From positions 1 through 25,857 of the IMG/VR virus record IMGVR_UViG_3300044844_000258: 25,857 nt of DNA. The stretch is one strand, 5' to 3'. The translations under genes and the position numbers were made by a program. The notes below the pieces were generated by a model. It saw nothing but the letters and a program-made list of their open reading frames with translations, was not told where the DNA came from and ran no database searches. This DNA is from a virus. Below, piece after piece: positions 1 to 6,298 of this stretch (position 1 is its first letter; every line of letters starts with the position of its first letter).

Positions 1-62
1 CGCTGCGCGTCTGTCGGTGCATGAGGCTTGCGGCCTAGCTTGCCTTTTGTTTCTTCGGTCAT
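1..62 (-). CDS. 5' end of a gene cut by the left edge (possible small terminase subunit)
   Basis: Reading leftwards from an ATG at 62, twenty codons are open before the window ends, giving a hydrophilic start that contains GRKPHAPTDAQ. The ATG overlaps the stop of the Mom-like gene in an ATGA junction, the same coupling used across this operon, so it is very likely a real gene. The short stretch resembles the N-terminus of phage HTH/small-terminase proteins that begin with a GRPPHxPT-type segment, and terminase genes often lie here in phages. The fragment is too short to prove the product. Confidence 0.5.
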   Translation of the reverse strand, partial: MTEETKGKLGRKPHAPTDAQ

Positions 63-724
63 GTCGAGGCCTCGAGAGTTGGAGCGTGTGGGTCAGTGCT
101 GCCCTGCCGCTGTGCTTCCGGGGAGGAAGCCATCGCCTTCTTCACACGCTTAGGATATGGTTTTGACAGCGGCATTATACGCTGCCGCATGTCTTCGTCT
201 AGTGGCATCAAGTAACGGTGTTTGCCTGGAACTGTTTTTTTAAGAAGGTTTGATTGATTTATCCCTGCATCATCAACTGTTTTTTTGTGTGACCACTTCC
301 CATTGTAAAATACTTTTATGGCTTTTCCAGATATGCCAACATAAACCCAATTTCCAGCTTGGTATATTCCGCCATGATGGCCTTGTTCTGGGTCTGCATA
401 AGAGACTATCAACCTAAGCCCATTGCTCTGTGTTTTCAGAAATCGCATTGCTTGTGCTGCTATTCTGCTGACAGGTGATTTATGTTTTGTCAGTGCTATT
501 CTGACAAGTTCACAACCTTCATCTTGCGAAAGACCGAATGGCGACAGCATATTGTTATTTGCACCACGGCCAAACAAAACAACACCAATAAACTTTCCGT
601 CTTCCCAAGCACCTACTTTGACTAACTTTCCAACTGGCAAGCATTTGCTATAGTGCCAATTCTCACACGCATACTTCGCAGCTTCATGTGTTGCCCAGTC
701 GATGCGGAGGTTAGCCTTGCTCAT
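59..724 (-). CDS. mom: Mom-like DNA adenine modification protein
   Basis: This 221-residue protein looks like the phage Mu Mom family, GNAT-fold enzymes that convert adenine in phage DNA to a methylcarbamoyl form and so protect it from host restriction. Recognisable family segments are HYSKCLPVGKLVKVG (24-38), FGRGANNN (51-58), CELVRIALTKH (71-81) and the conserved block SYADPEQGHHGGIYQAGNW (108-126). The C-terminus is a basic, low-complexity tail. The start overlaps the end of the ParB-like gene by 14 bases, suggesting coupled translation. The gene is visibly more AT-rich than its neighbours, with T and A runs around 230-330, which fits acquisition as a moron. No separate Com-type regulator was found. 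The family assignment is from recognised motifs; activity is inferred. Confidence 0.85.
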   Translation of the reverse strand: MSKANLRIDWATHEAAKYACENWHYSKCLPVGKLVKVGAWEDGKFIGVVLFGRGANNNMLSPFGLSQDEGCELVRIALTKHKSPVSRIAAQAMRFLKTQSNGLRLIVSYADPEQGHHGGIYQAGNWVYVGISGKAIKVFYNGKWSHKKTVDDAGINQSNLLKKTVPGKHRYLMPLDEDMRQRIMPLSKPYPKRVKKAMASSPEAQRQGSTDPHAPTLEAST

Positions 725-1229
725 GCTTCCTCATGTCGAACTCATCTCCGCAATGCGGGCATTGGATGATCTTTGGCGCAAGTTCGTCCAGCTTTCCTTG
801 ATCGGCTTCTGTGCCAGGTTCAAAGTTTGGCTGTGCGAACATTGACGCCATCTCACCTAGATCGAAGCCGGTGATAGTCAGATCGAACTTCATGTCTTCG
901 AGGTCTTTCAACTCAACTTTCAGCATCTCGAAGTCCCATCCCGCATCAAGCGCCATCCGGTTGTCGGCGATGACATACGCGCGCTTCTGGGCCTCCGTGA
1001 GGTGGCTCGCCTCAACGCACGGCACTTCCTTCAGTCCCAGCTTGTTCGCCGCCAGGACGCGCCCGTGGCCCGCCACGATGCCATTCTTGCCGTCCGTCAC
1101 CACCGGGTTGATAAACCCGAACTCCTTGATCGATGACGCGATCTTGGTGACTTGGGCCTCGGAGTGCGTCCTGCTGTTGCGGGCGTACGGGATGAGGTCG
1201 GCGGTTGGAATCAGCTTATAGGTCAGCAT
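711..1229 (-). CDS. ParB-like nuclease-domain protein with C-terminal CxxC motif
   Basis: This is a 172-residue protein using the ATG at 1229, which has an AAGGAC ribosome binding site; a longer in-frame reading to 1376 lies over the XRE gene and was not used. Residues 9-75 show the ParB/sulfiredoxin-like fold signature: LIPYARNSRTHSEAQ, then IKEFGFINPVV, and the nucleotide-binding loop GHGRVLAA at 54-61. The segment ending QKRAYVIADNRMALDAGWD is typical of phage ParB-domain proteins. The C-terminus has a single CPHCG knuckle (157-161). The gene sits directly upstream of and overlaps the Mom-like gene, so a role linked to DNA modification is plausible but inferred. It is unlikely to be a partition protein because no ParA or parS-like array is visible. 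Confidence 0.8.
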   Translation of the reverse strand: MLTYKLIPTADLIPYARNSRTHSEAQVTKIASSIKEFGFINPVVTDGKNGIVAGHGRVLAANKLGLKEVPCVEASHLTEAQKRAYVIADNRMALDAGWDFEMLKVELKDLEDMKFDLTITGFDLGEMASMFAQPNFEPGTEADQGKLDELAPKIIQCPHCGDEFDMRKHEQG

Positions 1230-1413
1230 TGCTGTCCTTTTTATTGTCGGTTTTCTGGACTGCCTTAACGGCAAGTTCGATATAGCGCGGGATCGGCTGC
1301 TTGCCGGTTTCGTAGGCTCGAAAGGTGTTGCGGGCGAGGCCAAGGGCCTCTGCTGCCTTGCGCTTCGATAGGGCAACCGAGGTGCGCCATTGGATTAGTT
1401 CGTCTGGTGTCAT
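1216..1413 (-). CDS. Small XRE-family HTH regulator
   Basis: This 65-residue protein consists almost entirely of one helix-turn-helix domain: MTPDELIQWRTSVALSKRKA leads into AAEALGLARNTFRAYETGKQ and then IPRYIELAVKAV. That is the standard phage/antitoxin XRE layout. The chosen ATG at 1413 has no Shine-Dalgarno sequence, but a TATATT box ends seven bases upstream, so a leaderless transcript is likely. A TTG-start reading from 1500 would run through the upstream terminator hairpin and is rejected. The 3' end overlaps the ParB-like gene by 14 bases. It probably controls its own promoter and the ParB-mom pair; this is inferred from position. Confidence 0.75.
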   Translation of the reverse strand: MTPDELIQWRTSVALSKRKAAEALGLARNTFRAYETGKQPIPRYIELAVKAVQKTDNKKDSNADL

Positions 1414-1420
1414 GCGGCGC

Positions 1421-1449
1421 AATATAGAGCAAAAAAAACCCCGCCACAA
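1421..1449 (-). promoter_or_regulatory. Predicted promoter giving a leaderless XRE transcript
   Basis: On the minus strand a TATATT box (1426-1421) is preceded, 17 bases upstream, by TTGTGG (1449-1444). The A of the XRE start codon at 1413 falls seven bases after the box, which is a normal transcription start distance. The -35 box lies inside the terminator hairpin of the upstream operon. The -10 match is good (5 of 6) and the -35 match is poor (3 of 6). Confidence 0.45.
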
Positions 1450-1457
1450 GGGCGGGG
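1431..1457 (-). terminator. Rho-independent terminator after the HTH/sigma4 gene
   Basis: On the minus strand the perfect stem CCCCGCC/GGCGGGG (7 bp, 5-base loop) is followed directly by eight T residues. It lies about 40 bases after the stop of the HTH/sigma-region-4 gene and separates it from the XRE-ParB-mom group. Confidence 0.85.
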
Positions 1458-1496
1458 CTGAGTTGCTGCGGCGGGAGGAGTAAACCGCAGGGGGGA

Positions 1497-2063
1497 TCAA
1501 TACCGATATGGATGCTTTGGCACGGCGACACCTAATCGTCTAGCCTGTTCCCGCATCTCGCGAATGGCCTTCAATTCGTTCTGCCGGATGCGCTCTCTCG
1601 TGACGCCATAGTCTTTGGCGATCTCTTCGAGCGTCCTTTCCGGCTCGCCGGTGAGGCCGAAGCGGGCTTCGATCATGGCGCGGCGGCGTGGGTGGGTGAT
1701 GGCAGCGACCAGCTTGGCGAGGAGCGGCTTGTCCACTTCCAGGCTCGACGGTGCGGCGATCTGGGCGAGTTGCTCGGCGTCGATCTCTGCCTCGATGGAA
1801 TTGCGGGCGGTGAGCAGGTCTCGCATGTGGTGCGGCCAGAGTTCTTCCGGCTCGGTGCGGAGCGCGGAGGAGATGTCCATTGCGAGTTCTGACCAGTCGC
1901 CGTTGGCGATGGGCTTTTCGCGGAAATTTATAATCGCGTTGATGTGTTGCGGAGACTTCCCCATGAAGCGGGAAAAATCGGCTTGTGTGGCGAACCCTGC
2001 GGCCTTGATGGCGCGGAGGAGTCTGGCATTGCGAACGGTGACTTTGACGGCGAAGTCGGTCAT
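1497..2063 (-). CDS. HTH protein fused to a sigma-70 region 4 domain
   Basis: This 188-residue protein appears to have two DNA-binding modules. Residues about 10-78 resemble an XRE/Cro-type domain, containing ATQADFSRFMGKSPQHINAI and ending in EELWP, a common C-terminal mark of phage XRE domains. Residues about 123-172 match sigma-70 region 4, which reads -35 elements: HPRRRAMIEARFGLTGE, then LEEIAKDYGVTRERIRQNEL and KAIREMRE. No region 2 (the -10 binding and core-binding part) is present, so it cannot be a complete sigma factor. It could act as a promoter-specific activator of the phage late genes. The start overlaps the preceding gene in an ATGA junction and the gene is followed by a strong terminator. 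Confidence 0.75.
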   Translation of the reverse strand: MTDFAVKVTVRNARLLRAIKAAGFATQADFSRFMGKSPQHINAIINFREKPIANGDWSELAMDISSALRTEPEELWPHHMRDLLTARNSIEAEIDAEQLAQIAAPSSLEVDKPLLAKLVAAITHPRRRAMIEARFGLTGEPERTLEEIAKDYGVTRERIRQNELKAIREMREQARRLGVAVPKHPYRY

Positions 2064-5743: not shown

Positions 5744-6298
5744 TTATGTGCGGCCTCCCCATTGTTCAGCCATCGCTTGTGCGATGCCCTCAAACGTCCT
5801 GCTTCGTTCTTTCCAGCAATCTGGCCCCGGCGGCATCTTGTGAATGCGCGCCTCTCGGCCTTCCACGATATTGGTCGGCAGCAGCTTCGGCAGGTTCTTG
5901 AGCCAAAGGCAAGTTGCCTTGGTTTCCCCATGCCCGAATTGCCACGGCTGGATGATTTGGTCTGGCTTGCGAATGCGGCTCGATATGATGCTGATCGGGT
6001 TTTCCAAGGCAATGCGCGGGATAGTGGCGTCTAACAAGCGTCTAACAAAGTCGAGCGCCTCGGCTTGTTCGATCTGCTTGTCCTTGAACCATCGAGCACC
6101 GGAAACGGCGAGATGAGTGCAAGGCGGGTGAGCGATCATCAAATCCCAGTTGCGATGCAAATGCTGAAGCACATCTCCGTGGATATGATTGCCAAGGCGT
6201 TCGGTCGGCAGCAGGTCACAAGACCAAGCATCGTGGCCTCTGGCGGCGAATGCATCCCGCACCGTGCCAGAGTATTCACAAGCGACCAGTACCCTCAC
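5744..6298 (-). CDS. Cytosine-C5 methyltransferase-like protein (short form)
   Basis: This 184-residue protein carries landmarks of the C5-cytosine methyltransferase fold: VLVACEYSGTVRDAF (3-17, SAM-binding motif I), HPPCTH (57-62, motif IV with the catalytic Cys60) and IALENP (96-101, motif VI Glu99). It is much shorter than full Dcm-type enzymes and has no obvious target-recognition domain. The C-terminus instead has CLWLKNLPKLLPTN and a short basic tail. Many phages encode such short forms. The substrate may be DNA or a nucleotide; sequence alone does not say. It overlaps the upstream regulator by ATGA and abuts the primase gene, so modification and replication genes are co-transcribed. 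Confidence 0.75.
   Translation of the reverse strand: MRVLVACEYSGTVRDAFAARGHDAWSCDLLPTERLGNHIHGDVLQHLHRNWDLMIAHPPCTHLAVSGARWFKDKQIEQAEALDFVRRLLDATIPRIALENPISIISSRIRKPDQIIQPWQFGHGETKATCLWLKNLPKLLPTNIVEGREARIHKMPPGPDCWKERSRTFEGIAQAMAEQWGGRT

Follow-up and report, generated by a model that had tools for sequence, protein, structure and literature searches.

Gene organization at the end of the window

The window analysed here is the whole stretch of 25,857 nucleotides of viral DNA (IMG/VR record IMGVR_UViG_3300044844_000258, positions 1 to 25,857), and a packed operon read from the minus strand lies at its end, in which the following features are recognized:

1497-2063, minus strand: gene for a sigma-region-4-like protein, part of the packed operon at the window end
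1216-1500, minus strand: gene for a helix-turn-helix (HTH) protein (HTH_31, E 2.6e-5, slightly under the Pfam cut-off), directly upstream of the ParB-like gene
711-1229, minus strand: gene for the ParB-like protein, 172 aa (PF02195, ParB_N, E 1.4e-6; phrog_620, E 7.4e-57)
840-1229, minus strand: ParB core (residues 1-130), which stays constant when the cassette is swapped, as judged by identity across cassettes
711-839, minus strand: ParB tail, residues 131-172 plus stop, exchanged with the downstream enzyme (DNA homology to non-Mom cassettes stops at 829-860)
771-827, minus strand: Mom-linked tail motif NFEPG..DQGKLDELAPK, residues 135-153, with the LD part at 771-794
747-761, minus strand: CPHCG zinc knuckle, residues 157-161, a single copy ~22 nt ahead of the overlap
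711-724, minus strand: overlap of 14 nt between the ParB end and the mom start; an overlap is present in 58/58 unique junctions
59-724, minus strand: Mom gene, 221 aa, encoding a predicted GNAT-like DNA adenine modification enzyme (PF25680, E 1.5e-43; PHROG 1384, E 7.7e-59)
1-62, minus strand: first codons of the gene for the terminase small subunit, which runs off the window, with its ATG at 60-62

The positions of the two central genes (711-1229 and 59-724), their overlap of 14 nt (711-724) and the CPHCG end of the ParB-like protein, all of which an earlier note on this DNA had described, are correct. The truncated gene has the same N terminus as the terminase small subunit encoded at 5555-5932 of contig L085 (phrog_309, E 1.6e-18), where TerL comes next. 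Mom overlaps both of its neighbours, its stop codon (59-61) and the terminase ATG (60-62) being merged as ATGA, and 14 nt are likewise shared between the end of the HTH reading frame (1216) and the ParB start (1229). Because of these neighbouring overlaps, the ParB/mom overlap is ordinary, and its interpretation as a special sign was rejected. A second putative DNA methyltransferase of the same phage is encoded at 5744-6298 of the window (minus strand; phrog_757, E 2e-72).

The Mom and ParB-like proteins

The protein encoded at 59-724 is firmly assigned by its sequence to the Mom family. It scores 149 bits against PF25680 (cut-off 27.1) over profile positions 1-202, which corresponds to a full-length match, and two alignments show residues HY (24-25), E72, R75, S86, S108, D111, Y121, and H146 to be invariant with Mu Mom. 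The conserved features of Mu Mom, namely HY, the S124 equivalent, SxAD, and YQA, are all present, and S86 aligns with Mu S124, the residue that is mutated in the inactive Mu Mom crystal structure 8bv8.

Phages very often carry ParB-like genes, and the usual annotation of these is partition protein or nuclease. The protein of the window consists of only the N-terminal domain of the ParB/Srx fold and a tail of ~40 aa. An AlphaFold2 model of the core has a pLDDT of ~80-96, and its best Foldseek match is a ParB dimer with CDP (6sdk, E 5.5e-7), with further matches to CDP/CTP-bound ParB (7bm8), Noc, KorB, and PadC (6ryk). Residues S33, G38, G54, and N90 are invariant in an alignment of 42 and correspond, in a profile alignment, to the pocket motifs of Spo0J. 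Profile matches and the predicted model thus agree in placing the protein in the ParB/Srx superfamily. The arginine of the ParB GxxR motif is absent in some pairs (Appa and Wyborn), so that CTP binding may not be general. The tail is modelled with low confidence, with a short helix across the LD motif. A chromosome or plasmid partition ParB was considered and rejected, since a Pfam search of the 172-aa protein gave no match to the parS-binding HTH domain and no ParA was found among the scanned neighbouring ORFs (HTH/sigma-like, primase, methyltransferase, and terminase).

Conservation of the ParB-Mom pair

A survey of how often the two genes are adjacent, which the earlier note had suggested, confirmed their association: of the 80 Mom loci of IMG/VR closest to that of the window, 79 have a ParB-like gene upstream of mom and on its strand. 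This figure describes the neighbourhood of the window Mom rather than all Moms because the Mom searches were seeded with it. The remaining locus, L035, is cut by a contig end. Within the 79, the ParB-like gene abuts mom in 78, and a spacer of ~180 nt separates the two in L031. All 58 unique junctions overlap, most frequently by 14 nt (33 junctions) and otherwise by 11 nt (11), 17 nt (8), 8 nt (5), or 1 nt (1). The pairing is far above chance.

Annotated phages that carry the pair include phiEf11 of Enterococcus (14-nt overlap), Appa of Microbacterium (8 nt), and Wyborn of Arthrobacter (1 nt). It is also found in Salinibacter B2_17 and in Arthrobacter phage Martha, where a 73-aa gene is placed between the ParB-like gene and mom, and in contigs of Yersinia, Serratia, Nitrosomonas, Methylosinus, Paenibacillus, Lysinibacillus, and Calditrichota, among others. 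The pair spans phages and prophages of several bacterial phyla, in other genomic surroundings as well. When 101 Moms are placed on a tree, those with a linked ParB cluster strongly into a single large clade, apart from Moms of the Mu type and other distant ones, which lack a ParB. Variants of the arrangement were also seen, with tandem ParB-like genes ahead of Mom in L342:1-1046 and L372:3-934, the first of which ends in CPGCGFEF and has no LD motif, and with Mom genes in tandem in L377:2348-3678, L314:2252-3657, and L044.

Enzyme exchange behind a constant ParB core

Searches that used ParB and the terminase small subunit as queries retrieved contigs of the same phage lineage, in which the ParB core and the downstream terminase gene are constant. 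What is exchanged is the stretch between the two, which begins at ParB codon ~130 and runs up to the ATG of the terminase gene. In the place of Mom, this stretch encodes a C5 cytosine methyltransferase (PF00145 in Pfam, E 1.8e-50), either of two kinds of TET-associated glycosyltransferase (TAGT; PF20691, E 1.4e-33 and 5.3e-38), or an N6/N4-methyltransferase fused to ParB (PF01555, E 6.2e-26). Residues 1-130 of ParB are 100% identical to those of the window in the C5-methyltransferase contigs (L221, the L085 region), 97% and 95% identical in the contigs with the first (L089) and second (L092) type of glycosyltransferase, and 97% (L090) and ~87-91% identical in the first and second type of fused methyltransferase, respectively. 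BLASTN of the window against these contigs gives ~90-94% nucleotide identity in both flanks and none inside the cassette. The exchange is exact: on the left, homology ends at ParB codon ~124-134 (~829-860 of the window), and on the right it resumes no more than ~15 nt from where the terminase small subunit gene starts. The locus is clearly a recombination spot, and the retention of the same ParB partner in close relatives with swapped enzymes makes this partner look like a reusable chassis that assists in placing protective marks on the DNA of the phage.

Other ParB-linked arrangements were also noted. In L152:532-1792 and L128:4000-5604, a ParB-like gene is followed by a GNAT-like and/or ATPase-like protein (GNAT of L152: PF00583, E 8.5e-4), which is perhaps another ParB-linked modification system. 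In L154:108-1459, a stand-alone ParB with the tail CPHCGETF precedes a 289-aa protein without a Pfam match, a candidate DNA-modifying enzyme of a new kind. ParB-methyltransferase fusions in L126, L127, L129, L133, L144, and others have a downstream gene resembling S-adenosylmethionine synthetase (PF00438, E 4e-9), possibly for cofactor supply.

The AT-rich mom gene had also been taken in the earlier note as a sign of acquisition as a moron. The GC content is 0.458 for mom (GC3 0.405), 0.568 for parB (GC3 0.746), and 0.549 for the window. The GC content of mom is likewise below that of its surroundings in 47 of 54 relatives, which points to an old property of the clade rather than to a recent arrival, and in phiEf11, Appa, Martha, and Wyborn it equals the local GC content. 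A recent AT-rich moron was consequently rejected, as the atypical composition is not private to this genome and is inherited in the clade. Cassette exchange has occurred, with a swapped segment that extends into the end of the ParB gene.

A Mom-linked motif in the ParB tail

The tails that follow the ParB core differ according to the enzyme. Among 98 distinct Mom-linked tails, xLD is present in 93, and the stricter pattern F.P...LD is present in 82 compared to 0 of 19 tails from other stand-alone ParBs. The CPxC knuckle is found in 97 of the 98 Mom-linked tails and also in 8 of the 19 others, among them ParBs paired with C5-methyltransferase; the fused methyltransferases have neither the LD motif nor CPxC. 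These counts indicate that the knuckle is generic and that the LD motif, in full F.P...LDxLxPK, is linked to Mom. The knuckle codons vary synonymously (TGC/TGT and CCG/CCA/CCT), indicating that selection acts on the protein. Distances between tails track those between Moms beyond what the ParB core accounts for (partial rank r 0.47), and simple linkage explains part of this co-segregation.

Prophage Moms of Pseudonocardiaceae (Lentzea, Crossiella, Actinokineospora, and one further genome) are preceded by no ParB. In all seven of these loci (L288, L289, L292, L293, L295, L296, and L383), an ORF that is likely a gene of ~50 aa and carries DF.P...PRLDxL ends at or just ahead of the mom start. The motif pattern occurs 6 times in 92,350 six-frame residues of the Pseudonocardiaceae loci, each time in this ORF, compared to 6 times in 3.05 million residues elsewhere, and in most pairs of these ORFs most differences are at third codon positions. 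They are thus likely short putative genes that carry just the LD motif. Terminase-like genes are located downstream of Mom in L289 and L296.

In a Rhodobacteraceae MAG (L291:3349-4273), a Com-like CxxC..CPRC protein, which matches Mu Com with a phmmer E-value of 1.1e-4, takes the place of ParB before a Mom of the ParB clade, and this Mom itself has an N-terminal extension with the LD-like sequence QPQLDKL. In the AlphaFold2 model of this single Mom of its kind, residues 1-34 have a pLDDT <50 and the extension is not confidently docked. A viral scan found no further loci that combine Com with an LD-bearing Mom, and there was no second strong case among 395 genomes of the same family.

Functional interpretation

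The occurrence of the pair across phyla, and the fact that different DNA-modifying enzymes take the place of Mom next to one ParB core, support the suggestion, made in the earlier note, of a two-part DNA-modification unit, and on this genomic evidence the ParB-like protein and Mom very probably form one. For the ParB-like protein, a role in targeting is the best inference. In the reading that we prefer, and to which we assign a probability of roughly 0.55, it would act as an adaptor that docks Mom via its tail. Mom, as a GNAT-like enzyme, would modify adenines of the phage genome against restriction, and its adaptor would be the ParB-like protein, which has a domain of the CTP-binding fold and is devoid of the HTH domain of partition ParBs. 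The tail, with F.P...LDxLxPK and the CPxC knuckle, would provide the docking site, and the core would deliver the complex with Mom to DNA, possibly by working as a nucleotide-gated clamp like ParB and PadC, although such CTP-gated loading is speculative. The 14-nt overlap would couple translation, such that ParB and Mom are made together just ahead of the terminase. We infer the docking, the DNA loading, the use of CTP, the chemistry of the mark, and its anti-restriction role. Not every Mom would need such an adaptor, since that of Mu and many distant ones function or are found without a ParB.

Another explanation of the tail is control of the Com type, which the earlier note had considered for the zinc knuckle: the knuckle, or translation of the tail, would open the mom start and thereby switch on Mom translation, as Com does in Mu. 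Com is a finger with four zinc-ligand cysteines; it binds the hairpin motif CC(N)2-3GAG, next to an inhibitory structure that contains the mom start (PMC6483171). The overlap in every junction, combined with weak and variable Shine-Dalgarno sequences of mom, fits translational coupling, and the Com-like protein of L291 stands at the usual position of ParB before a ParB-clade Mom. However, the ParB-like protein of the window has one CxxC and no match to the Com profile (PF10122), to which Mu Com scores E 2.7e-9. The knuckle is shared with ParBs of non-Mom enzymes, its codons are synonymously free, and in Martha it is retained although mom does not follow directly. No conserved inhibitory fold was detected at the mom start in the 58 junctions (mean z -0.40, sd 1.19). 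As for the Com RNA motif, the window lacks it, and fewer junctions contain it (13 of 142) than expected from shuffles (24.5). A Com-like knuckle was accordingly rejected as the best reading and such control is quite improbable, whereas translational coupling via the overlap itself is plausible.

The ParB-like protein might instead be an NTP-regulated nuclease or nicking partner in an arrangement similar to restriction-modification, in which Mom marks phage DNA and ParB nicks or degrades unmarked DNA. Earlier work ascribes nuclease and NTPase activities to ParB/Srx domains; in one case, a ParB domain joined to an adenine methylase is reported to nick nonspecifically (see the review PMC5512222). 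Such a nuclease would, however, have to read each of the different marks, since C5-methyltransferases and TAGT glycosyltransferases also occur with this core, and the motif-only ORFs stand in for the whole ParB in Pseudonocardiaceae. The best structural matches, the CTP-switch proteins ParB and PadC, also point away from it, although they are compatible with nuclease activity, and we regard this explanation as unlikely. It could also be argued that the two genes have no functional link and merely share an operon at a recombination-prone site before the terminase, where exchange is evident and where overlaps of a few nucleotides are common among operon genes. Against this, the pair persists at other loci and in other lineages, a different enzyme comes with a different tail, and ParB linkage is not scattered over the Mom tree, which leaves the absence of any link very improbable.

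The adaptor reading can be widened to a proposal that we hold tentatively, at a little under even odds: the ParB/CTP-fold domain may be a general exchangeable chassis for phage DNA-modifying enzymes, into which Mom as a modifier of adenine of the acyl type, C5-methyltransferase, TET-associated glycosyltransferases, and N6/N4-methyltransferases are each plugged by their own tail or fusion. The plug of Mom would be the LD motif of ~20 residues, able to stand alone as a micro-protein in Pseudonocardiaceae prophages. One ParB core kept with four kinds of DNA-modifying enzyme amounts to a natural experiment and gives a concrete, testable role to this domain, that of a DNA-modification platform. If true, it would explain how Mom-type enzymes other than that of Mu reach DNA without Com, and the tails of ParBs would predict which modification a phage carries. 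The LD motif is a short docking candidate that can be tested by point mutation.

Comparison with known systems

The ParB-Mom pairing itself is already visible in public annotations. The pairs of phiEf11 and Microbacterium phage Appa are similar to that of the window in gene order, overlap, and CPxC tail, and their ParB and Mom genes are annotated separately in the public records. In the literature searched, we did not find descriptions of a functional ParB-Mom link, of the cassette exchange behind a constant ParB core, or of the Mom-linked LD motif. The com-mom operon of phage Mu also has a small partner gene that precedes and overlaps mom, and its Mom shares the Pfam family and the invariant residues of the window Mom. 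The partner in the window differs, being a ParB/Srx fold with one CxxC rather than a four-cysteine finger, and the overlap is 14 nt, with no conserved hairpin or Com motif, compared to 80 nt in Mu.

The CTP-switch proteins (chromosomal ParB/Noc, KorB, and PadC) share the core fold and the positions of the nucleotide-pocket motifs, and PadC likewise contains a ParB-like domain matched in isolation; in place of the parS-binding HTH domain and a known ParA partner, the ParB-like protein of the window has a tail linked to its enzyme. The phage ParB-DNA methyltransferase fusions (phrog_498 / N6_N4_Mtase) have a ParB core 86-97% identical to that of the window at the same locus before TerS. In these fusions the enzyme is part of the same polypeptide and the LD/knuckle tail is missing, whereas in the window the enzyme is of a different chemistry and is encoded by a separate, overlapping gene.
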